This document shows positions 14,907-63,464 of a stretch of 64,000 nt of DNA, in pieces. The stretch covers positions 992,001 to 1,056,000 of the forward strand of contig NZ_ML769312.1 in NCBI RefSeq assembly GCF_009720365.1, given 5' to 3'. A program made the position numbers and the translations under genes. Under the pieces are notes generated by a model that searched no databases, was not told the DNA's origin, and was given only the letters and a program-made list of their open reading frames with translations. The stretch is from Catellatospora paridis (GTDB lineage: Bacteria; Actinomycetota; Actinomycetes; Mycobacteriales; Micromonosporaceae). Each line of letters begins with the position of its first letter. Position 1 is the first letter of the stretch.

Positions 14907-14911
14907 ACCTG

Positions 14912-15913: not shown

Positions 15914-16134
15914 GGGACCGCGAAGCGCCACATACGCTCTCGCCAGGCCGCGTCTTGGGAGAGGATGGAGGGCGCGGAACCTGGAGTCGATCACGAATCC
16001 GGCACGGCTTCTCGATCACTAGGACACCGCCGCCCCGGGCGTGCGCACCCGTGCCCGGCGTGGTGGGGTATGCGGTGGAAGGGACGCACCGGGGCGGCCG
16101 CAAACATCGAGCTTTCACGACCAGGAGTCACACC

Positions 16135-30078: not shown

Positions 30079-30966
30079 TCAGCGCAGCGCCTCGGCCGCG
30101 GTCGCCTGCACGGCGGTGGTGAGCGCGGCGAGGGCGACCGACTCCAGCCGCCAGTGCTGCCAGTACAGCGGCACGCTCAGGCGGCTGCCCGGCGCCAGTT
30201 CCCGGTATCGGCCTGCGGCCAGGTCGGCGTCCGCGACCTGCTCGGGCACCATGCCCCAGCCCAGGCCCAGCCGGATGGCCTCGTCGAACGCGGTCACCGA
30301 CGGCACGTAGTGGATCGGCGGGTCCGGCTCCTTGCGGGTCAGCGTGCGCAGGAAGCGGTGCTGGAGCTGGTCCTTGCGGTTGAGCACCAGCATCGGCGCG
30401 TCGGCGAGTGCCCGCGGGGTGACCCCGTCGGCGAACCAGTCGGCGTACATGGCCGGCGCCGCGACGGCCCGGTAATGCATCGCGCCCAGCCGTTGCGAGC
30501 GACAGCCCTGCACAGGCACGTTCTGTGCGGTGACCGCGGCCATCACGGTGCCGCTGCGCAGCAGCTCGGCGGTGTGCTCCTGGTCGTCCTGATGGACGTC
30601 GAACAGCAGCCGCAGCCCCGGGGGCACCGCCGCGAGCGCGGGCATGAACCAGGTCGCGAGGGAGTCGGCGTTGACGACGATGGCGGCCCTGGTCCAGGTG
30701 CCGCCGCGGCCGCCGCGGGCGGTGTCCAGGGCTTCGCGTTCGAGCAGCGCGATCTGCCCGGCCAGGCGCAGCAAGGGCTCGCCGGCCTCGGTGGCCCGGC
30801 ACGGCTTGCCGCGGCGGACCAGGATCTGACCGGCGGCCTGCTCCAGCGCCTTGATCCGCTGGCTGACCGCGGACGGGGTCAGGTTGAGCACCCTGGCGGC
30901 AGCGTCGAAGCTGCCCTCGCGTACGACGGCGGCGAACGTCTCCAGCTGTGCCGAGTCAAGTGTCAC
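30079..30966 (-). CDS. lysG: LysG/ArgP-family LysR-type regulator
   Basis: A 295-residue LysR regulator. The N-terminal winged helix is LETFAAVVREGSFDAAARVL and SAVSQRIKALEQ, followed by the periplasmic-binding-like effector domain. Sequence and context fit LysG, which activates the exporter lysE when Lys, Arg or His accumulate. It starts with GTG at 30966. The divergent lysE starts at 31038 and the dyad at 30977 lies between. Confidence 0.92.
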   Translation of the reverse strand: MTLDSAQLETFAAVVREGSFDAAARVLNLTPSAVSQRIKALEQAAGQILVRRGKPCRATEAGEPLLRLAGQIALLEREALDTARGGRGGTWTRAAIVVNADSLATWFMPALAAVPPGLRLLFDVHQDDQEHTAELLRSGTVMAAVTAQNVPVQGCRSQRLGAMHYRAVAAPAMYADWFADGVTPRALADAPMLVLNRKDQLQHRFLRTLTRKEPDPPIHYVPSVTAFDEAIRLGLGWGMVPEQVADADLAAGRYRELAPGSRLSVPLYWQHWRLESVALAALTTAVQATAAEALR

Positions 30967-38587: not shown

Positions 38588-39085
38588 TCAGGCAGGCGCG
38601 ACTTCGCGCAGACCACCGGTTCTCACGTCGTAGACGAACCCACGGACCGAGTCCTTCACCGGGATGAACGGGTCGGCGAGGATCCGCCGCACCGACTGGC
38701 GCACGTCGTCGTCGAGGTCGGTGAACGCCTCCGAGTCCCAGGGCGGCCGGATGCCGGTCTCCTTGGCGATGCCGTCCTTGAGTCCGTCGTCGGTGAAGGT
38801 CAGCATGCCGCAGTCGGTGTGGTGGATCAGCACGATCTCGCGCGTGCCGAGCAGCCGCTGGCTGATGGCCAGACTGCGCAGCTCGTCGGCGGTCACCACA
38901 CCCCCGGCATTGCGGATCACGTGCGCATCGCCTTCCTCCAGCCCGAGCAGTCCGTACGGGTTGAGCCGGGCGTCCATGCAGGCGAGCACCGCCACTCCGC
39001 GGGCGGGCGGCAGCGGCAGGTCGCCTCTGGTGAACTCGCGCTCGTAACGCTGGGCGTTTACCAGCAGTTCGTCGGTCACCGACAT
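38588..39085 (-). CDS. Beta-class carbonic anhydrase
   Basis: A 165-residue enzyme that interconverts CO2 and bicarbonate. Zinc ligands are in ACMDARLNPY (Cys, with Asp/Arg dyad) and LIHHTDCGM (His, Cys). Length fits the small actinobacterial beta class. The ATG at 39085 is preferred because GGAG precedes it and the protein then starts MSVTDELL; an ATG at 39112 would add nine residues with a poorly spaced site. It is divergent from tauC. Confidence 0.88.
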   Translation of the reverse strand: MSVTDELLVNAQRYEREFTRGDLPLPPARGVAVLACMDARLNPYGLLGLEEGDAHVIRNAGGVVTADELRSLAISQRLLGTREIVLIHHTDCGMLTFTDDGLKDGIAKETGIRPPWDSEAFTDLDDDVRQSVRRILADPFIPVKDSVRGFVYDVRTGGLREVAPA

Positions 39086-39140
39086 CTCGCGCTCCATCCG
39101 ATAGTCGTTCATCCCTCAGCTCGAAGCTAGACCCACTATC

Positions 39141-39160
39141 CCGATAGGCAAAGTATGCAT
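39141..39160. promoter_or_regulatory. Weak sulfur-motif copy between carbonic anhydrase and tauC
   Basis: CCGATAGGCAAAGTATGCAT resembles the stronger element at 39214. It lies 55 bp from the preferred carbonic anhydrase start (28 bp from the alternative). CTATCCCGATAG within it is a short dyad. Confidence 0.35.
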
Positions 39161-39213
39161 TTGAGGTACCCGCGGCGCTCGTCGCCGCATCCCACTATGT
39201 AATTCATACTTGA

Positions 39214-39233
39214 CCGATAGGATATGTAGGCAT
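39214..39233 (+). promoter_or_regulatory. Sulfur-motif element before tauC
   Basis: CCGATAGGATATGTAGGCAT carries two TAGG words nine bases apart. It is 13 bp before the tauC GTG (or 40 bp before an alternative ATG). Similar elements precede ssuD (47299) and metX/osmC (50521). Confidence 0.55.
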
Positions 39234-39246
39234 CAGGCTTCGTGGC

Positions 39247-40071
39247 GTGTCCGCTTCCACCGTCGCCACGGCCATGTCGACCTCGCGCCGCTGGCGCACC
39301 GCCACACTGCGGGCCGGCGCCGTCGTCGTGTTCGTCACCGTGTGGTGGGCGGTGGCAGCGGCCGAGATCTGGCCGCCGGTGTTCGTGCCCTCGCCGCAAT
39401 CGGTCTGGCAGCAATTCCTCGACACCTCGGGTCTCCGTGACACCGCCCGGCCGGGCTGGGCCGGGTACACCCTCGGTGAGCACCTGTGGGCCAGCCTGCG
39501 GCGGATGGCGCTGGGGTGCGCCTACGGCATCAGCGGCGGACTGCTGCTGGGCCTGCTGATCGGCCTGCTGCCCGCCGCGGACGCCGTGCTCGGCCCGGCC
39601 GTGACGTTCCTGCGCACGCTGCCGCCGCTGGCCTACCTCAGCCTGCTGGTCATCTGGTTCGGCATCGACGAGTCGCCGAAGGTGTGGCTGCTGCTGCTGG
39701 CCGCACTGCCGCCGGTGGCCGTCGCCACCGCCGACGCGGTGCGCGGCGTGCCCGCCGACTACCTTCATGCCGCCCGTTCGCTGGGCACCGGTCGAGCCCA
39801 GCTGCCGTGGCGGGTGCTGCTGCCGGCCGCCGCCCCGGAGATCCTCACCGGCGTACGGCTGGCCGTCGGCGTCGCGTACACCACGGTCGTGGCCGCCGAG
39901 ACGATCAACGGCGTGCCCGGCATCGGCGGGATGATCCGCGACGCCCAGCGCTACAACCAGACCGACGTCGTCGTGCTCGGCATCATCCTCATCGGCCTGT
40001 CCGGCCTGGCCTTCGACGGCCTGCTCCAACTCGCCCAGCGCCGGCTCACCCCGTGGCGCGGACGCGTCTAG
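39247..40071 (+). CDS. tauC: Taurine/sulfonate ABC transporter permease
   Basis: A 274-residue inner-membrane permease of the NitT/TauT type with about six helices. The EAA-like cytoplasmic loop lies near VPADYLHAARSLGTGRAQLPW. ETINGVPGIGGMIRDAQRYN near the end is a TauC hallmark. It starts with GTG at 39247 (ATG 39274 possible). tauA and tauB follow in the same operon. Confidence 0.87.
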   Translation: MSASTVATAMSTSRRWRTATLRAGAVVVFVTVWWAVAAAEIWPPVFVPSPQSVWQQFLDTSGLRDTARPGWAGYTLGEHLWASLRRMALGCAYGISGGLLLGLLIGLLPAADAVLGPAVTFLRTLPPLAYLSLLVIWFGIDESPKVWLLLLAALPPVAVATADAVRGVPADYLHAARSLGTGRAQLPWRVLLPAAAPEILTGVRLAVGVAYTTVVAAETINGVPGIGGMIRDAQRYNQTDVVVLGIILIGLSGLAFDGLLQLAQRRLTPWRGRV

Positions 40072-40099
40072 ATCCCCACCTACGATCGAAAGGACTCCC

Positions 40100-41149
40100 G
40101 TGACACACCTTGTGGACCGCCGCCGCCTGCTGCTCGGCGCTCTCGGACTGGCCGCGGCGCCGGCGCTGGCGGCCTGCACCGGCGACCCCGACCCCTCCCC
40201 CGGCACCGGCGGCGCGCCGGCGCAGCTGCGCATCGGCTACCAGCTCATCCCTAACGGCGACCTGATCGTCAAGGACCTCGGCTGGCTGGAGGCCGCCCTG
40301 CCCGGCACCACCGTGGTGTGGAGCAAGTTCGACTCCGGCGGCGACGTGAACACCGCGATCCTGGCCGGCAGCCTCGACATCGGCCTGGCCGGCAGCAGCC
40401 CCGTGGCTCGCGGCCTGGCCGCGCCGCTGAACATCCCGTACGCCGTGCCGTGGATCTTCGATGTGATCGGCGACAACGAGTCGCTGGTCGTCAAGCCGGG
40501 CATCGCCGACCTGGCGGGCCTGGCCGGCAAGAAGGTCGCCACGCCGTTCTCGTCCACATCGCACTACAGCCTGCTGGCCGCCCTGGCCGGGGCGGGTGTG
40601 CCCGAATCCAGCGTGAAGATCATCGACCTGGAGCCGCCGGAGATCCAGGCGGCCTGGCAGCGCGGCGACATCGACGGCGCGTACGTGTGGACCCCGGTCC
40701 TGGCCGAACTGCGCAAGACCGGAAAGGTGCTGATCACCAGCCGCGAGCTGGCCGGCAAGGGCAAGCTGACCGCCGACCTGGCCGTGGTGCGCACCGCGTT
40801 CCTGCAGCAGCACCCGCAGGTCATCAAGACCTGGATCCAGCAGCAGGACCGCGCCGTCAAGCTGGTCCGCAGCGACAAGACCGCCGCCGCGCAGGCCATC
40901 AGCCGCCAGCTCAACCTCGACGCCGACGAGGCCGGGGCGCAGCTGTCCGAACTGGTCCTGCTCGACGCCGCCGAGCAGGCCGGCGCCGACTACCTGGGCA
41001 CCCCCGCCGCGCCCGGCAAGCTGGCCGAGAACCTGCACGACGCCGCCGGGTTCCTCGTCGCGCAGGGCAAACTGCCCGCGGCGCCTGGCCTCGACGCCTA
41101 CCGCAAGGGCCTGGCCGTGCAGGCGCTCGCCGATGCCGGCGCAGCCTGA
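40100..41149 (+). CDS. tauA: Taurine/sulfonate-binding lipoprotein
   Basis: A 349-residue periplasmic-type binding protein. The N-terminus has an RRRLLLG-like Tat/lipoprotein signal and lipobox LAAC near residue 25. TauA features are clear: WSKFDSGGDVNTAILAGSLD, TPFSSTSHYSLLAALAGAG and AAWQRGDIDGAYVWTPVLAE. It delivers taurine or similar sulfonates to TauC. It starts with GTG after AAAGGA; its end overlaps tauB by 17 bp. Confidence 0.9.
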   Translation: MTHLVDRRRLLLGALGLAAAPALAACTGDPDPSPGTGGAPAQLRIGYQLIPNGDLIVKDLGWLEAALPGTTVVWSKFDSGGDVNTAILAGSLDIGLAGSSPVARGLAAPLNIPYAVPWIFDVIGDNESLVVKPGIADLAGLAGKKVATPFSSTSHYSLLAALAGAGVPESSVKIIDLEPPEIQAAWQRGDIDGAYVWTPVLAELRKTGKVLITSRELAGKGKLTADLAVVRTAFLQQHPQVIKTWIQQQDRAVKLVRSDKTAAAQAISRQLNLDADEAGAQLSELVLLDAAEQAGADYLGTPAAPGKLAENLHDAAGFLVAQGKLPAAPGLDAYRKGLAVQALADAGAA

Positions 41150-41933
41150 CCTCGCGGCCGTGCCCGACAGCGCCACCGCCACCGCGGTGGCGCTGTCCGC
41201 GGTGCGGCACGAGTACCGCTCCGGCGGCCGGCGCATCCTCGCCCTCGACGGGATCGACCTGCGGCTGGCGGCGGGTGAGTCGCTGGCCGTGGTCGGCCCG
41301 TCCGGCTGCGGCAAGAGCACCCTGCTCCGGATGATCGCCGGTTTCCTGCGCCCGTCACGCGGCGAGATCAGGGTCGGCGGTGCAACGGTCACCCGCCCCG
41401 GGCCCGATCGCGGCGTGGTGTTCCAGCAGCCGCGGCTGTTCCCGTGGCTGTCCGTGCACGGCAACGTCGCCTACGGCCTGCGCGAAGCCGGCGTGCCCCG
41501 CCGCGCCCGGCGCGAACGCGTCGAGGAACTGCTCGGCCTGGTCGGCCTCGGCGACGTCGGCGCGCTGCGGCCGTACGAGCTGTCCGGCGGTATGCAGCAG
41601 CGCGCCGCGATCGCCCGCGCCCTGGCCCCCGACCCCGCGATCCTGCTGCTCGACGAACCGTTTGCGGCACTGGACGCGCTCACCCGCGAGCGGCTGCAGG
41701 AGGAGCTGCGCGCCATCTGGCTGCGCACCGGCAAGACGCTGGTTCTGGTGACCCACAGCGTCGACGAGGCGGCGCTGCTCGGCAGCCGGATCATCGTGCT
41801 CAGCCCGCGGCCGGGCACGGTCGTGCTGGACGAGCAGTCGGCGCTGCCACGGGTCGAGCATGCCCGCGACGTGCCGGAGTTCGCGGCCCTGCGCTCACGG
41901 ATCCTGCAGGCGGTGGGCGCCCCCCGAAGCTGA
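41133..41933 (+). CDS. tauB: Taurine/sulfonate ABC transporter ATPase
   Basis: A 266-residue ATPase. Walker A is VGPSGCGKST, the Q loop VVFQQPRLFPWL, the signature ELSGGMQQRAAIARAL, Walker B ILLLDEPFAALD, and the switch His is in VTHSVDEA. It drives sulfonate import with TauA and TauC. It starts inside the end of tauA. No tauD dioxygenase follows; the nearest desulfonating candidate is the SsuD-like gene at 46196. Confidence 0.92.
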   Translation: MPAQPDLAAVPDSATATAVALSAVRHEYRSGGRRILALDGIDLRLAAGESLAVVGPSGCGKSTLLRMIAGFLRPSRGEIRVGGATVTRPGPDRGVVFQQPRLFPWLSVHGNVAYGLREAGVPRRARRERVEELLGLVGLGDVGALRPYELSGGMQQRAAIARALAPDPAILLLDEPFAALDALTRERLQEELRAIWLRTGKTLVLVTHSVDEAALLGSRIIVLSPRPGTVVLDEQSALPRVEHARDVPEFAALRSRILQAVGAPRS

Positions 41934-41997
41934 CGGGTCGCTGTCGCGGTCCTGCCGCCCTCGTCCACGGCGGTGCGGCAGGCCTGCCCGGCAGCGA

Positions 41998-43083
41998 TCA
42001 CCTGGCGCCCAGCGCGAACCGCTGCGGCACGCGCTGCCCCGCCACCAGGTCCGCGGCGATCCGGCCGATCAGCGGCGCGAACTTGAATCCGTGCCCGGAG
42101 AACCCGGCCAGCACGGTGACCGCCCCGTGGCGGTCGAGGACGAAGTCGTGGTCGGGAGTGATCGTGTAGAGACACGTCGACGCGACCGCCCCGGTGGGGT
42201 CGACCCCGGGGACCCACTTCTCGGCGTACGCCACCACCTGCGCCAGCGCGACCGGATCCACGGTCCGGTCGCGGTGGTCGGCGTCGACCTGCGGGCCCAC
42301 GCCGTGGAAGCCCGCCTTCACGCCGTCGACGCTGCCCAGGCCGTAGGCGCCCGGCTCGGACCCGGTCGTGCCCCGGTAGTGCAGGAAACTGGGCCACGAC
42401 AGCGGATCGGCCGCCGGGAAGTGCACCGGCTGCTCCTGTGTGACCCGCAGCGTGGGCAGGCCGGGCACCGTGCGGGCGACCAGGTCCGGCGCCCAGCCGC
42501 CCACGGCCAGCACGACGGCGTCGGCGACGAACACCTCCCCCACGTCCGTGACGACCTCGACCCGGTCGTCGCGCGTCGGCGTCACCGACGCCACCCGCAC
42601 ACCGTGCCGGACGTCCACTCCGGACTTCGCGGCCACCTGCTGGAACGCCGCGGTGGCACGGTCGGCGTGCACTCGGCCCGCCTCCGGATGGAACAGCACG
42701 TGCTCGTCGAAACGCAGCCCGGGCCAGCGCTCGGCCGCCGCCGCCGGGTGCAGGATCTCGCAGGGCCGCCCGGCCGCGCGCAGCGCCGCCTCGATCGCCT
42801 CGACCTGCTCCCGCGGCCCGTGGTCGACGGCGCCGACCAGGTCCAGGAGCTCCTGCCCGGACTCCTGTTCCAGCTCCCGCCACAGGGGCAGGGCCCGCGC
42901 CGCCAGGTCGACGTAGAACGGGTCCGGATAGGCCAGCCGGAAGATCCGCGAGCTGCCGTGGGAACTGCCGCGGTCATGGCCCGGCCCGAACTGTTCGAGC
43001 AGGGTGACCTGGGCGTGCCGGGACAGGGTCCGGGCGGCCGCCGATCCCATCACGCCACCGCCGACGACCAGCACGTTGCGCAT
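41998..43083 (-). CDS. solA: Sarcosine / N-methyl-tryptophan oxidase-like flavoenzyme
   Basis: A 361-residue FAD enzyme of the monomeric sarcosine oxidase (MSOX/SolA) family. The FAD loop is VLVVGGGVMGSAAARTLSRH, followed by the family motif SSHGSSRIFRLAYPD. A C-terminal VLAGFSGHGFKFAPLIG is the flavin end motif, but the covalent-FAD Cys context reads TCLYTITPDHDFVLD. It oxidises N-methylated amino acids, releasing H2O2 and formaldehyde. The substrate here is a guess. Confidence 0.85.
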   Translation of the reverse strand: MRNVLVVGGGVMGSAAARTLSRHAQVTLLEQFGPGHDRGSSHGSSRIFRLAYPDPFYVDLAARALPLWRELEQESGQELLDLVGAVDHGPREQVEAIEAALRAAGRPCEILHPAAAAERWPGLRFDEHVLFHPEAGRVHADRATAAFQQVAAKSGVDVRHGVRVASVTPTRDDRVEVVTDVGEVFVADAVVLAVGGWAPDLVARTVPGLPTLRVTQEQPVHFPAADPLSWPSFLHYRGTTGSEPGAYGLGSVDGVKAGFHGVGPQVDADHRDRTVDPVALAQVVAYAEKWVPGVDPTGAVASTCLYTITPDHDFVLDRHGAVTVLAGFSGHGFKFAPLIGRIAADLVAGQRVPQRFALGAR

Positions 43084-43207
43084 ACCGCCACCTGGGCTTC
43101 CTCGCGCGACACCGACCGGGTCCCGCGATCAAGGGCATCGAAGCGCCAACGGTAGCGCGCGGGGCGTGATCCTGTCGCAAGTGGTACCGGCAGACCGGGC
43201 CCTGCGG

Positions 43208-45166
43208 TCACCGGCCGAGGAGCGCATTCAGGTCGGCGAGATGGCGTGACACGGGTCCGACGGTGAGCATGCCCGAACCGGCTCCGGCCAGCTCGTCCGC
43301 CGCGGGCAGCAGCGCGGCGTGGGCCCGGGCCGCCGACACCCGGTCGCCCAGGGCCACCGCGGCCTGGGCGGTCAGGCACCACAGGGCCTCGGACAGCAGG
43401 TCGTGCGGGGGACGCGGGGTGCGCCGCAGTGCCCGGGCGGCGGCCCTGCGGTCGCGCGTCAGCAGCACCAGCGGCAGCGCCCAGGGTTCGTACGGCCCCC
43501 AGTCGGCGTCGCCCACCGGCTCCCACGGTTCGTCCCGGGAGACCCGCAGGCACAGCAGCGCCAGTGGCAGCAGGCCGTGTTCGACGCCGGGCATGCCCCC
43601 GCCGTGCAGCCGGTCCGCGGCCCGGCCGTAGGCGTCCTCTGCCACCTGGAGCGGCGCGCCTCCCGCCGCCAGGCGCATCGCCCGGTACCACTCGGTGAAC
43701 ACGCCGGCCAGTGGCCGCTCGTGCCGGTCGGCGAGCTGCTCGGCGGCTGTGGCGTGGCGGTCCGCGCCCGTGAAGTCGGCCAGGGCGCCGCGGGCCTGCA
43801 TCCGGATGAGGTGGCCGAGGATCTCGAAGGTGGCCAGGCCGTGCCGGGCGGACAGGGTGACCAGTTCGGCGCCGATGCCGTCGCGGCGCGGGGCCAGACC
43901 GGTGTGCTGGAACGTCTGCATGTAGACGCCGTTGAGGGCGAACGCGAGCAGGGCCGGGTCGCCGAGGCGGCGTGCGAGGTGCTCGGCCTGCTGGGCGGCC
44001 TGCGGACCGCGTGGTTCGGGGGTGCCGCGCGACTCGATCGCGACGGTGGCGAGCAGGCGGGCCCGTGCGGCGTCGCCGGTGTCGGGGGTGAGTGCGGCCA
44101 GGGTGCGTTCGGCTACGGCCACGACCTGCGCCGACTGGTCCGGGTCGTCGGAGCGGGTCCAGATGGCGGGCACGTCGTATCCGCCGATGATGCGGGCGGT
44201 CAGTTCCGGGTCGCCGAGCTGCTCGGCGGCGGTGATGGCGGCCAGGCGCTGGTCGCGGGCCGCGGCGACGCCGCCGGCGACGGCGAGGCCGCGCAGCACG
44301 CCGACCGTCGATTCGAGCCGGGTACGGGCCCCGGGTGCGAGCGCGCGGTCATAGGCGGCGGTGGCGTCGGCCCAGAGCTGTGCCGCGGGGTCGGCCCCGG
44401 GCGCTTCCTGCTGGCGCAGGATGTCGGTCTCCAGTTGCCGCAGCCGTGGCCCCGGGTCGAGGCCGAGCTGTTCGGAGAGCCGACTGCGCGCGCGCCGGAG
44501 CACGGCCAGGGCGTCGCCTTGCCGGCCGGTGCGGTACAGGGCCAGTGCGAGCAGCCGCCAGGCGTCCTCGCGCCAGGGGTGTTCGGTGGCGTGGGCGTCG
44601 AGGTCCGGCACGGCGTCGGCGGAGCGGCCCATGGCGATCATCGCCTCGGCGCGGCGTTCGATCGCGGTCAGGCGCAGTTCCTGCAGCCGGGAGCGTTCCG
44701 CGCGGGCCCAGGTCGCGTCTTCGAAGTCGGCGTAGGCCGGTCCGCGCCACCAGGCCAGGGCCGTGTCGAGCCGGACGGCGGCCTGCGGCGGTGTTTCGGC
44801 GGCGGCGGTGGTCAGGGCCTGTTCGAACCGCCAGGCGTCGACCGCGTCCGGTGCGGCGCGCAGGGCGTATCCGGGACCTTCGGTGACCAGCAGCCGGGCG
44901 GGTCGGCGGGGTGGACGGTCGGGTTCGAGCGCGCGGCGCAGCGCGGCGACGAAGGTGCGCACCGTGGCGACGGCACCCGGTGCGGGGTCGTCCCAGAGGT
45001 CGTCGACCAGGCGGGTGACGGGCACGACCCGGCCGCGGGCGATGACCAGGCGGGCCAGCACGGCCCGGTGCCGGGGGCCTTTCACGTCGACGGGCTCGCC
45101 GGCGCCGTCCCAGGCGACGACGGGGCCGAGGACCCCGATGCCGACCACGGGTCGAACATACCGCAC
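43208..45166 (-). CDS. BTAD (SARP/AfsR-like) regulator lacking NB-ARC
   Basis: A 652-residue protein. An OmpR-like DNA-binding domain (about 5-100: GPRHRAVLARLVIARGRVVPV, WDDPAPGAVATVRTFVAALR) is followed by the BTAD helical repeat domain (to about 250). The C-terminal 400 residues are helical and TPR-like, with no P-loop. The full AfsR ATPase is therefore missing. Start is uncertain (GTG 45166 or GTG 45148, the latter beginning nearer the first strand). It is divergent from the hydrolase at 45229, a plausible target. Confidence 0.8.
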   Translation of the reverse strand: MRYVRPVVGIGVLGPVVAWDGAGEPVDVKGPRHRAVLARLVIARGRVVPVTRLVDDLWDDPAPGAVATVRTFVAALRRALEPDRPPRRPARLLVTEGPGYALRAAPDAVDAWRFEQALTTAAAETPPQAAVRLDTALAWWRGPAYADFEDATWARAERSRLQELRLTAIERRAEAMIAMGRSADAVPDLDAHATEHPWREDAWRLLALALYRTGRQGDALAVLRRARSRLSEQLGLDPGPRLRQLETDILRQQEAPGADPAAQLWADATAAYDRALAPGARTRLESTVGVLRGLAVAGGVAAARDQRLAAITAAEQLGDPELTARIIGGYDVPAIWTRSDDPDQSAQVVAVAERTLAALTPDTGDAARARLLATVAIESRGTPEPRGPQAAQQAEHLARRLGDPALLAFALNGVYMQTFQHTGLAPRRDGIGAELVTLSARHGLATFEILGHLIRMQARGALADFTGADRHATAAEQLADRHERPLAGVFTEWYRAMRLAAGGAPLQVAEDAYGRAADRLHGGGMPGVEHGLLPLALLCLRVSRDEPWEPVGDADWGPYEPWALPLVLLTRDRRAAARALRRTPRPPHDLLSEALWCLTAQAAVALGDRVSAARAHAALLPAADELAGAGSGMLTVGPVSRHLADLNALLGR

Positions 45167-45228
45167 TCATCCAGCGCTCATCGGTGCCCGGCACGCTGGG
45201 CAAACCGACGATCACGAGGAGCACAGCG

Positions 45229-46107
45229 ATGGCGTACGCCATGCCCGGTTTCGATTATCAGCGCGTCACGGTCGACGACGACGTGGCGCTGAACGTGGCG
45301 GTGGGCGGTTCCGGCAGCCCGGTCGTGCTGCTGCACGGTTTCCCGCAGACCCACCTGATGTGGCGGCACGTCGCCGCGGACCTGGCCGCCGATCACACCG
45401 TGATCTGCCCCGACCTGCGCGGATACGGGGCCAGCGACAAACCCGCCGAGCACGGCCCACACACCTATGCCAAGCGGACCATGGCCGCCGACGTGGTGGC
45501 GCTGGCGCGGGCGCTCGGCCATGAGCGGTTCGCGCTGGCCGGGCACGACCGCGGCGCACTGGTCGCGGTGCGAGCGGGGCTGGACCATCCGCACGCGGTC
45601 ACCCGGCTCGCCGCGCTGGACGTGCTGCCGACCCTGGACATGTGGGACGTCCTGCACGGCGCGCAGGCGGCCGTGGCGTTCCACCTGTACCTGATGGCCC
45701 AGCCGCCCGGCCTGCCCGAACAGATGATCGGCGCGAGCGCGGACGCGTTCTTCGGGCACTTCCTGGACGTCTGGACCCGCGATCCGCAGGCCATCCCGTC
45801 GGAGATCCGCGCGGAGTACCTGCGGGCGTCGCGGGAGGCGGTGCCCTCGATCGTGGCCGACTACCGCGCCTCGGCGGGCATCGACGTCGAGCACGACCGG
45901 GTCGACCGGACCGCCGGGCGGCGGCTGGCCATGCCGGTCACGGTCATCCAGCAGGACTGGGGTGCCGCGCTGGGCTACGACGCGGCGGCGGTGTGGCGCG
46001 CGTGGGCCCCGGACCTGCGCCACCACATCACCTCGGCGGGGCACTTCATGGCCGAGGAGGCGCCAGCCGAGGTCGTCGGCGCGCTGCGCGCGCTGCTCGA
46101 CCGCTAG
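45229..46107 (+). CDS. Alpha/beta hydrolase, haloacetate-dehalogenase-like
   Basis: A 292-residue alpha/beta hydrolase close to fluoroacetate dehalogenases. VVLLHGFPQTHLMWRHV, CPDLRGYGASDKP, nucleophile Asp in LAGHDRGALVAVRAG and His in TSAGHFMAEEAP fit that group. It may hydrolyse carbon-halogen, ester or epoxide bonds. The ATG at 45229 follows GAGGAG. It is divergent from the BTAD regulator, which may control it. Confidence 0.83.
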   Translation: MAYAMPGFDYQRVTVDDDVALNVAVGGSGSPVVLLHGFPQTHLMWRHVAADLAADHTVICPDLRGYGASDKPAEHGPHTYAKRTMAADVVALARALGHERFALAGHDRGALVAVRAGLDHPHAVTRLAALDVLPTLDMWDVLHGAQAAVAFHLYLMAQPPGLPEQMIGASADAFFGHFLDVWTRDPQAIPSEIRAEYLRASREAVPSIVADYRASAGIDVEHDRVDRTAGRRLAMPVTVIQQDWGAALGYDAAAVWRAWAPDLRHHITSAGHFMAEEAPAEVVGALRALLDR

Positions 46108-46138
46108 CGTCCGGGGCCGCTGCGCGCCGAGGAGACCG

Positions 46139-46170
46139 GGCACGGTGCGGGGCCGGTCCCGCACCGTGCC
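46139..46170. terminator. Convergent terminator, 13-bp perfect arms
   Basis: GGCACGGTGCGGG (46139-46151) pairs with CCCGCACCGTGCC (46158-46170) around a 6-nt loop between the convergent hydrolase and SsuD-like genes. Confidence 0.8.
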
Positions 46171-46195
46171 GTGGCGGCACTCCGGTCCCGGGTTG

Positions 46196-47269
46196 TCACG
46201 CCGAGGTGCGCACCAGCGGCAGCACGTGCTCGCCGACCCGGCGGGCCTCCTCCAGGTGCGGCCAGGCCGACAGGATGAACTCGTCGACGCCCAGGGCGGC
46301 GTACTCGCTGATCCGCTCGGCGACCTCGGCGTAGCTGCCGACCAAGGCCGTGCCCGCGCCTTCGCGGACCAGACCCACCCCGGCCCACAGGTTCGGCGCG
46401 ATGACCAGGCTGTCCGCCCGGCCGCCGTGCAGGGCCGCCATGCGGGCCTGGCCGACCGACTCCATCCGGGCGAACCGCTGCTGCGCGGCGGCGATGCGTT
46501 CCGGGTCCATGCCCGACAGGAGCCGGTCGGCCTCGGCCCAGGCCTGCTCGGCGGTGGGCCGGGCGATCACGTGGATGCGCAGGCCCAGCCGCAGGGCACG
46601 GCCGTGCTCGGCGGCCAGGGCGCGCATCCGGGCGGCCCGCTCGCCGATCGCGGCCGGCGGCTCGCCCCACATCAGGTACACGTCCGACAGGCGCGCGGCG
46701 ACCTGCTCGGCGGCCGCCGACGCGCCGCCGAAGTAGATCGGCGGGGCCGGGTCGAGTGCCCGGCCGAAGCCGCCGGCCTCGACGCGGTAGTGGTCGCCCT
46801 GGTAGTCGAACCGCTCCCCCGCCCAGCAGCGCCGGATGACGTCCAGGCATTCCGCGGTGCGGCTGTAGCGCTCGCCGTGGTCGAGGAAGTCGCCGTACGC
46901 CCGCTGCTCGGCGCCGTCGCCGCCGGTGACGGCGTTGAGGGCCAGCCGCCCGCCGGACATCGCCTGGAACGCCTCGGCCTGCTGGGCGACCAGCGTGGGC
47001 AGCGCGAACCCGGTCCGGAACGCGACCAGCAGCTTGAGCCGCTCGGTGTGCTGGGCGACGGCGGCGCATACGATCCACGGGTCCGGGCAGGCCGCGCCGA
47101 CCGGGGTCAGCGCGGCGGTGAAGCCGGACTGCTCGGCGGCGCGGGCGACGTCGGCGAGGTAGCCGATCGACGCCGTGCGGGCGTGCCGGGCCGCACCCGC
47201 CGCCACCGTGGCCGAGCCGACCTCGGTGCCGTCGCCCGAGGTGGGCAGGAACCAGTGGAACTGCGTCAT
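46196..47269 (-). CDS. ssuD: SsuD-like alkanesulfonate monooxygenase (LLM family)
   Basis: A 357-residue luciferase-like monooxygenase. The N-terminus TQFHWFLPTSGDGTEVGS and LKLLVAFRTGFALPTLVA match FMNH2-dependent alkanesulfonate monooxygenases, which release sulfite from sulfonates. RLALNAVTGGDGAEQRAYGDF is another family segment. No FMN reductase lies next to it. The ATG follows GAGGAGAAC, and the sulfur-motif element lies 30 bp upstream. Together with tauCAB it forms an uptake-desulfonation route. Confidence 0.84.
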   Translation of the reverse strand: MTQFHWFLPTSGDGTEVGSATVAAGAARHARTASIGYLADVARAAEQSGFTAALTPVGAACPDPWIVCAAVAQHTERLKLLVAFRTGFALPTLVAQQAEAFQAMSGGRLALNAVTGGDGAEQRAYGDFLDHGERYSRTAECLDVIRRCWAGERFDYQGDHYRVEAGGFGRALDPAPPIYFGGASAAAEQVAARLSDVYLMWGEPPAAIGERAARMRALAAEHGRALRLGLRIHVIARPTAEQAWAEADRLLSGMDPERIAAAQQRFARMESVGQARMAALHGGRADSLVIAPNLWAGVGLVREGAGTALVGSYAEVAERISEYAALGVDEFILSAWPHLEEARRVGEHVLPLVRTSA

Positions 47270-47298
47270 CCGTGTTCTCCTCGCTCACCGGTCGGCTC

Positions 47299-47318
47299 AT
47301 TCCTACATTTCCGACCGG
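47299..47318 (-). promoter_or_regulatory. Sulfur-motif element before ssuD
   Basis: On the minus strand it reads CCGGTCGGAAATGTAGGAAT, aligning base for base in length with the elements at 39214 and 50521. It is 30 bp upstream of the start codon. Confidence 0.5.
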
Positions 47319-47445
47319 CCTGCTAGCTTATGCGCTCGGCACGGCGCGCGGAAGATCGCCGGGGCGCAGCGTGGCTCAGCCCGGGCTTTCGTGCGCGAAG
47401 TCGACGCCGCCGCGGTGGTCCCCGGCGCCCCAGGTCAGCCGCCGC

Positions 47446-47928
47446 CTACTGGAGCCCGGACCGCACCGAGGTGACGCGTCGGGTGTTGAAGCCGAGCCAG
47501 TGCATACGGCCCAGGTAGCGCGCGTGCTCGATCTTGAGGCAGCGGTCCACGATCACGTCCAGGCCGCCGTCCTCGGCGATCCGCGCGCCCTCGGCGTTGA
47601 CGACGCCGAACTGGCACCACAGGGCCCCGGCCTGGATCTCCACGGCCTCGCGGGCGATGCCCGGCAGTGCGTCCGGCGCGCGGAAGACGTTCACCACGTC
47701 CACCGGCACCGGCACCTCGCGCAGGCTCGGATAGCTCTGCTGCCCGAGGATCTCGGTCTCGCGGGGGTTCACCGGGATCACCCGGTAGCCGTGCCGCTGG
47801 AGGTAGTAGCCGACGAAGAAGCTGGCGCGCAGCTGGTTGCTCGACAGGCCCACCACGGCGATCGTCCTGGCGGTGTGCAGCACCCGCTGGATCGTCGCGG
47901 TGTCCTGGTAAGGACTGAGGTCGGTCAT
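47446..47928 (-). CDS. CoA-binding (YccU-type) protein
   Basis: A 160-residue CoA-binding-domain protein with Rossmann-like nucleotide loop TIAVVGLSSNQLRASFFVG, and GYRVIPVNPRETEILGQ. Homologues lie next to methionine biosynthesis genes in many actinobacteria; function is unproven. The ATG follows GGAGGTGA and starts 4 bp after the metY stop, so it is the last gene of the metX-metY operon. Confidence 0.85.
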   Translation of the reverse strand: MTDLSPYQDTATIQRVLHTARTIAVVGLSSNQLRASFFVGYYLQRHGYRVIPVNPRETEILGQQSYPSLREVPVPVDVVNVFRAPDALPGIAREAVEIQAGALWCQFGVVNAEGARIAEDGGLDVIVDRCLKIEHARYLGRMHWLGFNTRRVTSVRSGLQ

Positions 47929-47932
47929 CGCG

Positions 47933-49252
47933 TCACCTCCTGGCCGCAGCCGCGGCCACGTGGGAGAAACCCTGCTCCAGGTCCCAGATCAGATCGTCGA
48001 CGGACTCGGTGCCCACCGACAGTCGCACCGTGCCCGGCGCGACGCCGGCCGCCCGCAGCTCGTCATCGCCGAGCTGCCGGTGCGTCGTGCTCGCCGGGTG
48101 GATGATCAGGCTCTTCGCGTCGCCGACGTTGGCCAGGTGGGACCAGAGGGTCACACCCCGGATGAGGTCCTGGCCGCCGGCCCGCCCGCCCACGCAGTCG
48201 AACGAGAAGACCGCGCCCGCGCCCCGCGGTAGGTACTTGCGCACCAGCGGCTGGTGCCTGCTGGCGGGCAGCGCCGGATAGGTGACGTTGGCGGCCAGTT
48301 CGTGCGAATCCAGGAAGGCCGCGATCACCTGCGCGTTCTCGACGTGGCGCTGCATGCGCAGCGACAGCGTCTCCAGCCCTTGCAGGAACAGGAACGCGTT
48401 GAACGGCGCGAGCGCCGCGCCGAGGTCGCGCAGGGTCTCGGCGCGCAGTTTCATCAGGTATCCGTACGCGCCGAACGTCTCGTGGAACTGCAGGCCGTGG
48501 TAGGCCGGGGAGGGATCGGCGATCACCGGGAAGCGCCCGTTGGACCAGTCGAACGTGCCGGCCTCGACGACGACGCCGCCGATGCTGGTGCCGTGGCCGC
48601 CGATGAACTTCGTCGCGGAGTGGACCACGATGTCGGCGCCCCACTCGATCGGGCGGCACAGGTACGGCGTCGCGAACGTGTTGTCCACGATCAGCGGCAG
48701 GCCGTGCTCGTGCGCGATGGCCGCGACGGTCTCGATGTCCAGGACGTTGCCGGCCGGGTTGCCGATCGTCTCGCCGAAGAACGCCTTCGTGTTGGCGCGC
48801 ACCGCCTTGCGCCACGCTTCCGGGTCGTCGGGGTCGACCCAGGTCAGTTCGACGTTCATCTTGCGCAGCAGGTGTTTGAGCTGGTTGACGGTCCCGCCGT
48901 ACAGGGCCGAGGACGACACCAGGTGGTCGCCGGGTTCGAGCAGGGTGAACAGCGCGGCGGCCTGGGCGGCGATGCCGCTGGCGAACGCCACCGCGCCGCA
49001 GCCGCCTTCGAGGTTGGCGACGCGCTCCTCGAACACCGCGACGGTCGGATTCATGATCCGCGAGTAGGTGTTGCCGTACTCCTGGAGGTTGAAGTAGGCC
49101 GCCGCGGATTCCGGGTCTTCGAAGACGTAGCTGGTCGTCTGGAAGATCGGCACGGCGCGGGCGCCCGTGTTCGGGTCGGGCCGCTGCCCGGCGTGCAGTT
49201 GCCGCGTCTCGAACCCGAACGTGCGGTCCTGTTCGACGGGTCGGTCGGTCAC
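47933..49252 (-). CDS. metY: O-acetylhomoserine sulfhydrylase (aminocarboxypropyltransferase)
   Basis: A 439-residue PLP enzyme of the Cys/Met metabolism family. The PLP lysine is in VVHSATKFIGGHGTSIGG; the N-terminus GFETRQLHAGQRPDPNTGA and WSHLANVGDAKSL are typical of MetY. It makes homocysteine (or methionine) from O-acetylhomoserine and sulfide (or methanethiol). It starts with GTG, 19 bp after metX. Confidence 0.93.
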   Translation of the reverse strand: MTDRPVEQDRTFGFETRQLHAGQRPDPNTGARAVPIFQTTSYVFEDPESAAAYFNLQEYGNTYSRIMNPTVAVFEERVANLEGGCGAVAFASGIAAQAAALFTLLEPGDHLVSSSALYGGTVNQLKHLLRKMNVELTWVDPDDPEAWRKAVRANTKAFFGETIGNPAGNVLDIETVAAIAHEHGLPLIVDNTFATPYLCRPIEWGADIVVHSATKFIGGHGTSIGGVVVEAGTFDWSNGRFPVIADPSPAYHGLQFHETFGAYGYLMKLRAETLRDLGAALAPFNAFLFLQGLETLSLRMQRHVENAQVIAAFLDSHELAANVTYPALPASRHQPLVRKYLPRGAGAVFSFDCVGGRAGGQDLIRGVTLWSHLANVGDAKSLIIHPASTTHRQLGDDELRAAGVAPGTVRLSVGTESVDDLIWDLEQGFSHVAAAAARR

Positions 49253-49271
49253 GGATGCCTCTTCCTGCGCG

Positions 49272-50480
49272 TCATGCGGCTGCCTGCGCCTGCGCGAGGA
49301 AGCGGCGGATGATGGGGGTCTGCCGTGCCTCCTCCAGCAGGAAGCAGTCGTGCCCGTACGGGGCGTCGATCAGGTGGTACTCGACCGGTTTTCCGGAGGC
49401 GAGCAGGGCCTGCTCGATCTCGCGGGAGGCGGTCGGCGGGTACAGCCAGTCCGAGCTGAACGCGATCAGCAGCGTGCGTGCCGTGATGTCGCGCAGCGCC
49501 CGGGTGAGCGATCCGCCGTGCTGGCGGGCGAGGTCGAAGTAGGTCAGCGCCCGGGACAGATAGAGGTAGGTGTTGGCGTCGAAGCGTTTGACGAACGCGT
49601 CCGCCTGGTGGCGCAGGTAGTTCTCGATCTCGAACTCGGGTTCGCTGATGGTGTGGCGGATGTCGTCGGCGAACTGCAGCCGCCGGCCGAACTTGTCGTC
49701 CAGCGCCGGTGCGGACAGGTAGGTGATGTGGCCGACCATCCGCGCCAGGCCCATGCCGGCGTCGGGCGCCCGGCCGGTGCCGTGGTAGTGGCCGCCCTGC
49801 CAGGAGACGTCGCGCATGATGGCGTCCCGGGCGATCGCGTTCCAGGCCACGCCCTGCGGATGCAGCGCGTGCGTGCTGGCGATCGCGACGACCGCGTCGA
49901 CCTGGTCGGGGTACAGGACCGCCCACTGCATCGCCTGCATGCCGCCGAGCGAACCGCCGGCCACCGCGGCGAGCCGGTCGATGCCGAGTTCGCCCAGGAA
50001 GGCGCGTTGCGTGCGGACCATGTCGGCGACGGTGACGACGGGGAAGTCCGATCCGTACGCCCGCCCGGTCACCGGGTCGGTCGAGGACGGGCCGGTGGTG
50101 CCGCGGCAGCCGCCGAGCACGTTGGTGGACACCACGAAGTACCGGTCGGTGTCGAACGCCTTGCCGGGGCCGATCATCCCGTCCCACCAGCCGAGCGCTC
50201 GGCCCGCCGCGCCGTCGCGGGCCTCGGCGGCGAAGCCGTCGCGGGTGCCCGCCTGCGCCGGTGTCGTGGCGTAGCCGGCCGCGTGGGCGTCGCCGCTGAG
50301 GGCGTGGCAGACCAGGATGACGTTGTCTCGTGCGGGTGACAGGGCGCCGTAGGTCTCGTACGCCACGCGGATCGGCCCGAAGTCGCGGCCACAGTCCAAT
50401 CGGAGCAGTCCGGGCAGGTCGAGGTGCTGCGTGTCGACGCTGCCGACCGAGGCGGCGGGCAGGGCCGGGGGCGCGGTCAT
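49272..50480 (-). CDS. metX: Homoserine O-acetyltransferase
   Basis: A 402-residue alpha/beta-hydrolase-type acyltransferase. The nucleophile Ser is in VAGGSLGGMQAMQWAV; Asp and His lie at the C-terminus (YGHDCFLLEE). NVLGGCRGTTGPSS and the LSGDAHAAG loop are family hallmarks. It makes O-acetylhomoserine for MetY. ATG at 50480; the promoter region is shared with the divergent osmC gene. Confidence 0.93.
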   Translation of the reverse strand: MTAPPALPAASVGSVDTQHLDLPGLLRLDCGRDFGPIRVAYETYGALSPARDNVILVCHALSGDAHAAGYATTPAQAGTRDGFAAEARDGAAGRALGWWDGMIGPGKAFDTDRYFVVSTNVLGGCRGTTGPSSTDPVTGRAYGSDFPVVTVADMVRTQRAFLGELGIDRLAAVAGGSLGGMQAMQWAVLYPDQVDAVVAIASTHALHPQGVAWNAIARDAIMRDVSWQGGHYHGTGRAPDAGMGLARMVGHITYLSAPALDDKFGRRLQFADDIRHTISEPEFEIENYLRHQADAFVKRFDANTYLYLSRALTYFDLARQHGGSLTRALRDITARTLLIAFSSDWLYPPTASREIEQALLASGKPVEYHLIDAPYGHDCFLLEEARQTPIIRRFLAQAQAAA

Positions 50481-50520
50481 GGCTGGTCCTTGAAGGAGGG
50501 TCGGTGTAATGTCGTGTTGT

Positions 50521-50540
50521 CCGATAGGAATTATAGGATA
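50521..50540. promoter_or_regulatory. Sulfur-motif element between metX and osmC
   Basis: CCGATAGGAATTATAGGATA has two TAGGA words nine bases apart. The reverse strand contains TATAAT, a good minus-10 for metX. The element is 23 bp before the osmC ATG and 41 bp before metX. Confidence 0.6.
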
Positions 50541-50563
50541 ACCATGGAGAGGGGTACGCCGAC

Positions 50564-51112
50564 ATGACCATCGTCGATAACGGCGTCAACGTCAAGGCAC
50601 TGCTCGACGCCCGCGAGGTCCTCAAGGACGCCGCCGAAGCCGCCCAGTTCACCTGGCGCGCCACGTCCAAATGGCAGAAGGGCGTGCACAGCACCACGAC
50701 GATCCAGAACTTCTTCGGCCTGGGCCAGGAGCAGAGCCACAAGGCCGAGGCCGTCTTCGACGCCGACCACCCCGAGGTGTTCGCGGCCGAGGACAACGGC
50801 ATCACGCCGATCGAATACCTCCTGGTCGGCCTCGCGAGCTGCCTCACCGCAGGCGTGGCCTCGGTCGCGCAGAACCGCGGCATCCAGCTGCGCTCGGTCG
50901 AGTCCACCGTCGAGGGCAACCACGACATCCGCGGCATCCTCGGCGTCGACGGCGACGTCCGCAACGGCTTCAACAACATCAAGGTGACCTTCACCATCGA
51001 CGCCGACGCCTCCCAGCAGGAGATCGAGGCGCTGGTCGCCCAGTCACAGAAGCGTTCGGCCGTCTTCGACGCGCTCACCAACCCCACCGACGTCACCGTC
51101 GAAGTCGCCTGA
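50564..51112 (+). CDS. OsmC-family protein with a single cysteine
   Basis: A 182-residue OsmC/Ohr-fold protein. The conserved cysteine lies in VGLASCLTAGVASVA, but the partner cysteine of peroxidatic OsmC/Ohr proteins is absent: the matching region reads KRSAVFDALTN. It therefore cannot follow the classical two-Cys mechanism. The same class of single-Cys OsmC proteins often occurs with sulfur or flavin genes. The ATG at 50564 follows GGAGAGG. The FAD monooxygenase follows 13 bp after. Confidence 0.85.
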   Translation: MTIVDNGVNVKALLDAREVLKDAAEAAQFTWRATSKWQKGVHSTTTIQNFFGLGQEQSHKAEAVFDADHPEVFAAEDNGITPIEYLLVGLASCLTAGVASVAQNRGIQLRSVESTVEGNHDIRGILGVDGDVRNGFNNIKVTFTIDADASQQEIEALVAQSQKRSAVFDALTNPTDVTVEVA

Positions 51113-54296: not shown

Positions 54297-55184
54297 TCAC
54301 GGCCGCGCCGACGCGGCGGGAATCTGCTGCAGTACTTCGATCATGATGGCGATGTCGCGGTCGGCGTATCCCAGCTCACGAGCTTTGCTGAGCAGCGCGT
54401 CGGTGACCTGCGCCGCCGGCAGCGCCACGCCGAGCGAGTCGGCGGTGGCAAGAGCAAGGCGGATGTCCTTCTGCATCAGCACCACGTCGAACCACGGCTC
54501 GGCCAGCGGATCGAGCAGGAAGTCAGCCCGGGCGCGCAGCGACGGCGAACCGATGGCGCTGCCATTCATCACCTCGATCGCCTTCTTGCGGTCGACCCCG
54601 CCCCGCTCGGCCAGCAGCACGCCTTCACAGAACGCCAGCAACTGCGCGGCCAGGCTGTCGTTGATGGCCAGCTTGAGCAGCAGCGCCTCGGCGTTGCCGC
54701 CGACATGGGTCACCTGTTGGCCCAGCTGATGCAGCAGCGGTTCGACCGCGTGGAAAGGTTCGGTGTCGCCGCCGACCATGATGGCGAGGCTGCCCTGCTC
54801 CACGGCGCGGACGCTGCCGGAGACGGGGGCGGCGAGCATGTGCGCGCCGATCCCGCGCACCTGGTCGCCGATCCCGCTGCTGGCGGCCGGGCTCACCGTG
54901 CTCATGTCGATGTAGATCTTCCCGGGTCCCAGGCCGGCGAGGATCCCGTCCGGGCCGGATGTGACCGACTCCAGGGCGGCGTCGTCGGTCACCATGCTGA
55001 AGACGACCTGCGCCGCGGCGGCGACCTCCCGTGGCGTGTCACACCAGGTGAGACCGCGCTCGATCAGCGGTTCTGCCTTGGCCCGGGTGCGGTTGGTGCC
55101 GTACACCCGGTCCCCGAGGTCGAGCAGGCGCCCGGCCATCCGGCCGCCCATCGCGCCGAGGCCGACATAACCGATCGTGTTCAT
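54297..55184 (-). CDS. NAD(P)-dependent beta-hydroxyacid dehydrogenase-like oxidoreductase
   Basis: A 295-residue 3-hydroxyisobutyrate-dehydrogenase-type enzyme. The cofactor loop is TIGYVGLGAMGGRMAGRLL, the substrate motif AAPVSGSVRAVEQGSLAI, and the catalytic Lys is in LLLKLAINDSLAAQL. It likely reduces a semialdehyde or oxidises a beta-hydroxy acid. The ATG at 55184 follows GAGAGGAG; the longer frame upstream is not supported. Confidence 0.87.
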   Translation of the reverse strand: MNTIGYVGLGAMGGRMAGRLLDLGDRVYGTNRTRAKAEPLIERGLTWCDTPREVAAAAQVVFSMVTDDAALESVTSGPDGILAGLGPGKIYIDMSTVSPAASSGIGDQVRGIGAHMLAAPVSGSVRAVEQGSLAIMVGGDTEPFHAVEPLLHQLGQQVTHVGGNAEALLLKLAINDSLAAQLLAFCEGVLLAERGGVDRKKAIEVMNGSAIGSPSLRARADFLLDPLAEPWFDVVLMQKDIRLALATADSLGVALPAAQVTDALLSKARELGYADRDIAIMIEVLQQIPAASARP

Positions 55185-55400
55185 CGCATGCTCCTCTCGC
55201 CTGCCCACGATCTCGGTGTCACACGCGCGGCGCCCATGCCCGCAGCGCACCAATTGAACCGTACGCCCGGTTTAGTCATGTGCGCTGGCAGATCATCAGC
55301 TCCGAACGCGAAGCAGTCGCGCGGCGACCCTCGTCGAACACGGTGATCGCCGACCATTTCGACGATGGCGACGGCGGTTCGGCGGTGGTCCGATGGCGCG

Positions 55401-63243: not shown

Positions 63244-63312
63244 GAAGACCCTTCCTGACAAGTGATGGCCAGGCGGGCGCGAACCATCGCGCCGGATGCC
63301 GTGGGGGTGCTG

Positions 63313-63337
63313 CCTGTCAGGTGCCGCACCTGACAGG
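63313..63337. promoter_or_regulatory. Perfect 11-bp hairpin in the leader of the sugar dehydrogenase gene
   Basis: CCTGTCAGGTG (63313-63323) pairs with CACCTGACAGG (63327-63337) with a 3-nt loop, 70 bp upstream of the start codon. It may be a dyad operator or a message leader hairpin. Confidence 0.55.
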
Positions 63338-63464
63338 TGGCGGCCTCTGACGGCGGATGGAGCCATCACAGATCGCCAGTCGATGGGTCCCGCGCCGCCG
63401 GTACGCCTCGACGAAAAACTTGCCGATCTTGCCGACTCCCGTGTCACATGTCGTGGTGGGAGTC

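Follow-up and report, generated by a model that had tools for sequence, protein, structure and literature searches.

The 64,000-nucleotide window of DNA of the soil actinobacterium Catellatospora paridis analyzed here (contig NZ_ML769312.1, positions 992,001 to 1,056,000) contains four copies of a three-box element of approximately 34 bp, each next to a gene associated with sulfur metabolism. As judged from sequence comparisons, the element is a real, conserved sulfur operator, and it is likely that its copies are the operators of a sulfur-limitation regulon that would be bound by a cysteine-poor, CymR-like repressor of the Rrf2 family. Copies of the element precede the tau, ssu, flavin reductase and SfnB genes of sulfonate uptake and cleavage, the methionine synthesis genes metXY, the cysteine dioxygenase gene, genes of sulfate transport, and genes encoding OsmC, carbonic anhydrase and an exporter of the TauE type; the element is also found beside genes of Rrf2-family regulators. 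The finding bears usefully on the question of the actinobacterial sulfur regulator, which a conserved operator together with named candidate proteins makes testable.

The window was scored with a matrix derived from 51 sites and with a second one, for which 31 non-genus sites served as training set. As given by these two matrices in turn, operator copies were found at 39201 to 39234 on the plus strand, upstream of tauCAB (40.2 and 32.1 bits); at 47298 to 47331 on the minus strand, upstream of ssuD (26.9 and 22.7 bits); at 50508 to 50541 on the plus strand, between the divergent metX(-metY) and osmC genes (45.6 and 41.1 bits); and at 39128 to 39161 on the minus strand, facing the carbonic anhydrase gene (24.9 and 21.6 bits). 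The maxima in the reversed window were 2.8 bits with the 51-site matrix and 2.9 bits with the non-genus matrix. These four places were the top four of the window with the non-genus matrix; the fifth, a weak operator-like match within an open reading frame at 55158 to 55191 (8.4 bits, and 12.7 bits with the non-genus matrix), is probably noise.

The initial annotation of this region had described a shared 20-bp element at 39214 (+), 47299 (−) and 50521 (+), and these 20-mers were recovered with 0, 0 and 1 mismatches, respectively. The shared element is real, but its length is about 34 bp rather than 20 bp, with a third box upstream. The short gaps reported between 20-mer and start codon also hold: 13 bp to the tauC GTG at 39247, 29 bp to the ssuD ATG at 47269, 23 bp to the osmC ATG at 50564, and 40 bp to the metX ATG at 50480. 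The copy noted as weaker at 39141 is present with 3 mismatches and is a genuine site, with its best score on the minus strand, where it faces carbonic anhydrase. In 100 dinucleotide shuffles of the window, matches with 3 or fewer mismatches averaged 0.01; on its own this test is circular and not independent, because the pattern had been fitted to the sites tested. The core upstream of tauC was also found in three further genomes of the genus (loci L064, L065 and L074), and carbonic anhydrase orthologues with an adjacent site were found in two other genera (L106 and L108).

When 71 unique matches were aligned together with their flanks, the 20-mer proved to be the right-hand portion of the longer element, for which the 51-site alignment gave the consensus AAAGCCTATCAATCCGATAGGAATTATAGGAAAA. 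The three boxes, with centers about 9 bp apart, are CCTAY around position −7, CCNATNGG at positions 1 to 8, and ATAGG at positions 13 to 17. Inverted pairs were found in the core at positions 2/16 in 70 of the 71 matches, at 4/14 in 66, and at 5/13 in 61. Pair counts about the center of the 34-mer were not clearly above the expectation for independent columns, and so symmetry is described here and co-variation is not proven. When 59 sites were scanned for −10-like TANNNT words, 35 counts fell at offsets −3 and 1 to 4 from the core end and 2 counts at all other scanned offsets on the same strand, and 23 of 37 counts on the opposite strand fell at a single offset; these counts are judged against the other offsets only, with no shuffled expectation, one site may count twice, and the words at offset −3 lie partly within the core. 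Because such words cluster at the right end of the element, it probably overlaps core promoters, and the overlap with −10-like words makes repression likely.

Enrichment before sulfur genes of related genomes, which the initial annotation had proposed as support, was found in both the genus and the family. The 17-bp core CCNATAGGAWWTATNGG, with at most 1 mismatch, gave 26 matches in 11 of 11 genomes of the genus relative to 0 for the reversed pattern; 3 of the 26 are in the C. paridis genome, and 23 are outside the genome that supplied the pattern. They precede ssuA (10), tauC (4), osmC/metX (4), flavin reductase (3), the Rrf2_C2 gene (2), and an FAD/NAD(P)-binding gene (2), and one (L062) is without an assigned gene. 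In 101 Micromonosporaceae genomes, 64 core matches were found in 38 genomes, compared to 3 in the control, and 49 of these matches were outside the genus. Gene contexts in the family were tallied by hand, and 27 of the 49 non-genus loci had clear sulfur genes, namely cysteine dioxygenase (9), ssuA/ssuD (9), osmC/metX (4), flavin reductase (2), carbonic anhydrase (2) and tauE (1). Looser candidates accounted for 8 loci: NMT1/ssuA-like binding proteins (3), and one each of a tauB-like ATPase, a luciferase-type monooxygenase, an SfnB-like/solute-binding locus, a molybdopterin oxidoreductase, and an Rrf2 fragment beside a solute-binding protein. Another 3 precede an FAD/NAD(P)-binding gene, and 11 are without an assigned gene.

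With the full matrix, 56 of the 64 family sites scored at least 30 bits and all 8 sites below 30 bits were at unassigned loci, a comparison that is partly circular because the 51-site matrix left out the 13 family loci then without a clear sulfur gene. Two of the omitted loci, L083 and L128, adjoin a luciferase-type and a molybdopterin oxidoreductase gene, respectively, and three unassigned family loci score above 30 bits.

Conservation upstream of orthologous genes was evaluated with a held-out matrix of 35 sites, none of which came from cysteine dioxygenase or osmC. The orthologue loci were fetched by protein similarity only, without reference to the motif, and the 200 bp upstream were scored. 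The cysteine dioxygenase set consisted of 30 loci (74 of the 101 family genomes were matched), and the osmC set of 25 of the 30 loci fetched, the five omitted having 62% identity or less. It was found that 29 of 30 cysteine dioxygenase orthologues and 18 of 25 osmC orthologues had an upstream site of at least 15 bits, the loci below this value being one cysteine dioxygenase and seven osmC. None of the 55 downstream controls reached 15 bits (the shortened locus L318 scored −19.5), and the same was true of the 55 reversed upstream controls, one of which was at 10 bits or more. Absence of conservation upstream of orthologues, named in the initial annotation as an outcome that would speak against a regulon, was thus not what we found.

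Within the C. paridis genome, the places covered were those with 3 or fewer mismatches to either of two patterns and the neighborhoods that were fetched. The ssuA-type operon site scored 49.4 bits with the 51-site matrix. Further sites were found at a flavin reductase gene with a divergent ABC exporter (39.4 bits), between a family-5 solute-binding protein gene and a divergent gene of an SfnB-family sulfur acquisition oxidoreductase (33.4), and at genes for an FAD/NAD(P)-binding protein (32.9), Rrf2_C2 (29.9), an NMT1-type binding protein (27.7), cysteine dioxygenase (23.9), sbp-cysTWA (20.0) and tauE (19.7). One place, L024, scored 17.3 bits and has no sulfur gene; the maximum in reversed C. 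paridis DNA (230,694 bases, with overlapping loci counted) was 8.7 bits. Of the encoded proteins, SsuA (TIGR01728), SfnB (TIGR04022), the sulfate-binding protein (TIGR00971) and CysT (TIGR02139) were above their NCBIfam cut-offs, CysW was under its cut-off, and TauE and CDO_I were above the Pfam cut-offs.

The best candidate for the regulator, as judged from protein families and gene neighborhoods, is probably a CymR-like Rrf2 protein. The C. paridis genome has four full-length and two partial Rrf2 matches, and three of the full-length proteins (C2, C3 and C13) are CymR-like and cysteine-free or nearly so, the fourth (C14) having five cysteines. The genes of the three are at 722875 to 723339 of contig C2, 652577 to 653011 of contig C3, and 61028 to 61480 of contig C13. 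C2, C3 and C13 belong to the Rrf2 superfamily, with 93.5, 105.3 and 101.2 bits, respectively, to TIGR00738 (cut-off 73.3), and they score 54.2, 65.1 and 84.2 bits with the CymR equivalog model, below its cut-off of 195. The C2 protein matches the CymR structures 2y75 and 3t8r. The C2 and C3 proteins may resemble Rv1287 of Mycobacterium tuberculosis. Among 143 Rrf2 segments found by tblastn, 115 are cysteine-free (46 of 56 for C2, 31 of 44 for C3 and 38 of 43 for C13) and therefore have no Fe-S ligands; one segment has three cysteines, and the C. paridis C3 protein has one.

Genes of two of these paralogue groups adjoin sulfur genes, and about half of their loci also have a site nearby. Rrf2_C2 is present in six named Catellatospora genomes at 67 to 91% identity. 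In C. paridis a site lies upstream of its gene, which converges on sbp-cysTWA, and in these six loci, which are from close relatives, a site precedes Rrf2_C2 in 6 of 6 (29.3 to 32.8 bits) and a second site precedes sbp-cysTWA in the same 6 (17.5 to 24.0 bits). Among 30 loci retrieved with the C2 query, 15 had a site of at least 13 bits, the best outside the genus being 35.4 bits (L152), and all 30 had an ABC-transporter or tauE neighbor, some by generic ABC similarity only. Rrf2_C3 is followed by a TauE-family gene, and a site separates them, in 5 of 6 genus loci (19.1 to 20.5 bits, 19.7 in C. paridis), and neither tauE nor a site was seen at the sixth (L243). The 30 C3-query loci had tauE alongside in 16 and a site of at least 12 bits in 14. 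Sites of at least 30 bits were present in 34 of the 86 family genomes in which a C3-type match had an E of 1e-30 or better, compared to 0 of 15 without such a match (Fisher p = 0.0012, from a table filled by hand).

We considered each group as the regulator by itself. The C3 type was dropped as sole regulator, as the genera are related and weaker osmC or cysteine dioxygenase sites persist in genomes without C3. The C2 and C13 types were likewise rejected as sole regulators. No C2-type gene was found among the Rrf2 matches of the motif-bearing genomes G045, G041, G080 and G017, and the C13 type was not found in G014 or G045, nor was there a site near the C. paridis C13 gene.

In the literature passages drawn on here, CymR is an Rrf2-family repressor of cysteine metabolism in Bacillus subtilis and Staphylococcus aureus whose regulon includes ssu genes (PMC3828012), and the B. 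subtilis protein binds no cluster (PMC9338935). CymR represses when cysteine suffices and releases in starvation, with CysK as its partner in B. subtilis (PMC3828012, PMC9338935), and the cysteine genes of B. cereus include cysteine dioxygenase (PMC3519770). As for CymR in these passages, the candidates here are Rrf2 proteins mostly without Fe-S ligands, and the operators precede sulfur and cysteine genes. Unlike CymR, the candidates reach 54 to 84 bits against the model cut-off of 195, and there are several paralogues per genome. The regulon described here adds tau-like genes, metXY, tauE, carbonic anhydrase and osmC, which those passages do not name for CymR, and the likeness to CymR concerns protein family and regulon content. 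In Rhodococcus qingshengii IGTS8, the CymR/Rrf2-like protein peg394 was put forward from proteomics and homology as a candidate global sulfur regulator (PMC8557817), which, like the candidates here, is an Rrf2 protein from an actinobacterium with a proposed role in sulfur control. According to the part of that paper considered, the peg394 gene has no sulfur neighbors, as is the case for most C13-type loci here, and no operator is given there for peg394.

By analogy with CymR, a dimer of a cysteine-poor Rrf2 protein would bind the inverted boxes, and the three boxes could take two overlapping dimers. With cysteine or a related signal in ample supply, the repressor would cover the −10 region and the genes would be off; when sulfur is scarce, the repressor would be released and the genes would be on. 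The C2-type protein, encoded next to sulfate transport genes, would also control its own gene. We infer this scheme of repression and release from CymR, possibly with a partner enzyme. In CymR-type regulons, CysK is a co-repressor that signals O-acetylserine; that MetY or CysK would be the partner here is a guess.

Several observations weigh against the specificity of the element or against this reading of it. In the C. paridis genome, at 3 or fewer mismatches, the 20-mer pattern gave 12 matches relative to 5 for the reversed control, and the 17-bp core gave 36 relative to 23 (30 of these 36 places were rescored with the matrix). Only low-mismatch or high-scoring matches stand out from the control, and those with 0 to 2 mismatches are the three window sites and the ssuA-type operon site, which is not the random genome-wide occurrence that the initial annotation had named as refuting. 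The strict core is only modestly enriched in the class, with 31 matches in 296 genomes compared to 8 in the control, 5 of the 31 coming from the Micromonosporaceae, and a class-wide spread was rejected as weak. The link between Rrf2 proteins and the operator, as drawn from the sequences, comes from the proximity of genes and sites, which does not prove binding. There are three Rrf2 paralogue groups, and none fits alone. About half of the C2-query and C3-query loci (30 each) have no site. Despite the best CymR score, 21 of 24 C13-type loci are without a sulfur neighbor and 23 of 24 are without a site; the other 3 have a sulfur-type neighbor, and the single site is at L207, beside cysteine dioxygenase. 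Among 27 C3-query loci from outside the family, a neighbor from the set of sulfur genes searched for is present at only 3, and a site at none. The motif-bearing genome G045 has a single Rrf2 match, of the C3 type; G014 has one match, also of the C3 type, in two scans and two matches as counted in another; and genera g24 and g29 have no C3-type match, yet weaker sites precede osmC or cysteine dioxygenase.

Some of these points would also be expected if the element were a sulfur operator of another regulator, such as a TetR, ROK or LysR protein, with the Rrf2 genes being merely regulon members or neighbors. We consider this unlikely, although no single Rrf2 group accompanies the motif in every genome, and a site is lacking at half of the Rrf2 loci. 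It also has a precedent in Corynebacterium glutamicum, where, as described in the part of the source considered, McbR and the ROK proteins CysR and SsuR control sulfate, sulfonate and other sulfur genes (PMC2580772), McbR being of the TetR type (PMC8557817). However, McbR, CysR and SsuR belong to other families than the Rrf2 candidates here, and the CysR site, given there as a 10-bp inverted repeat with TGAAtnnAAt (PMC2580772), has no counterpart in the operator, as by inspection this box is absent from both strands of the consensus. A LysR gene is present in the window at 30079 to 30966, but no site is near it, the closest being some 8 kb away. Two Rrf2 groups, on the other hand, repeatedly adjoin sulfur genes, often with a site alongside, and Rrf2/CymR is a known sulfur repressor of Firmicutes (PMC3828012).

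The initial annotation had left open whether the element is an operator or a promoter element tied to sulfur supply. An operator fits best; a promoter element is less likely, given that divergent genes share a single site and that the spacing from site to start is variable. That the element is the promoter of an alternative sigma factor active in sulfur starvation is highly improbable. In favor of it, start codons are nearby, and SigJ is part of the sulfur response of Rhodococcus in the portion of the report considered (PMC8557817), but the boxes are inverted and a single copy serves metX and osmC. The first base is about 17 to 94 bp before the approximate start at sites of the same orientation, with one at 200 bp, whereas other sites are in the opposite orientation, and separate −10-like words adjoin the element. 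A chance resemblance or a mobile repeat has next to no probability: the pattern used at first was derived from three sites, and C. paridis matches at 3 mismatches are only modestly above the reversed control, but the held-out matrices and orthologue sampling recover the element with 0 matched-control matches at 15 bits or more, and these tests exclude a chance match.

If the Rrf2 operator reading is carried further, the whole may be one sulfur-scavenging regulon throughout the Micromonosporaceae, in which duplicated, mostly cysteine-free Rrf2 repressors would share the three-box operator and lineages would keep different paralogues. This wider proposal is tentative and somewhat less probable than its opposite; if true, the family-wide regulon would represent the missing master sulfur regulator of actinobacteria other than Corynebacterium. 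Literature searches among open-licence papers listed none on this motif or on an Rrf2 sulfur operator in Micromonosporaceae. The regulon also suggests a sulfur role for the poorly described OsmC-family and FAD/NAD(P)-binding genes.

The sulfur-gene identities assigned to the window in the initial annotation (carbonic anhydrase, tauC, ssuD, metX and osmC) were upheld, tauC being part of a tauC-tauA-tauB-like operon. Genes were called by codon-position GC content and by tblastn to C. paridis proteins, and start codons are approximate. The β-carbonic anhydrase gene, a target, is at 38588 to 39112 (−; Pfam Pro_CA). On the plus strand are genes for a tauC-like permease at 39247 to 40071 (best NCBIfam match TauC, 200 bits, under the 342 cut-off), a tauA-like substrate-binding protein at 40100 to 41149 (best match taurine_ABC_bnd, 212 bits, under 304), and a tauB-like ATPase at 41133 to 41933 (best match the taurine ATP-binding subunit, 230 bits, under 357). 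On the minus strand, ssuD, for an FMNH2-dependent alkanesulfonate monooxygenase, is at 46196 to 47269 (NCBIfam match of 421 bits, under 510), metY, for O-acetylhomoserine sulfhydrylase, is at 47933 to 49252 (TIGR01326, 619 bits, above 495), and metX, for homoserine O-acetyltransferase, is at 49272 to 50480 (PRK00175, 484 bits, above 331). The gene of the OsmC-family protein, also a target, is at 50564 to 51112 (+; Pfam OsmC).

Some operator-bearing genes outside the window deserve mention. Cysteine dioxygenase (for example L012, 1009 to 1482) is a cysteine-degrading enzyme and as such is unexpected in a starvation regulon; its operator may be a sign that taurine or sulfite is handled. The FAD/NAD(P)-binding gene is repeatedly operator-bearing, at contig position C13:143506 of genome G000 (L026, 1592 to 3016, +) and similarly at L070, L075, L094, L095 and L111; Pfam NAD_binding_9 was found in the L026, L070 and L111 proteins, and those of L075, L094 and L095 were likened by eye. 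This protein is a candidate new sulfur enzyme. At C1:956130 of G000, an operator lies between the genes at 13657 to 15429 (−) and 15612 to 16958 (+) of L014, for the family-5 solute-binding protein and the SfnB-family oxidoreductase, and it recurs beside acyl-CoA dehydrogenase-like genes in other genomes (L107, L179, L180 and L184); these genes are perhaps an organosulfur scavenging set.

Outside the family, some matches score 40 to 46 bits and are beside tauE, acyl-CoA dehydrogenase or LysE/PF03601 genes. One of them, at L187 (839 to 2761), is a 45.9-bit site between divergent LysE-type and PF03601 transporter genes, the latter of which we take to be YeiH-like. In the window itself, an open reading frame of 1751 amino acids is predicted at 58192 to 63447 (−), and a SARP/AfsR-type regulator gene is located at 43208 to 45166 (−), within the tau-met region and with no operator nearby.

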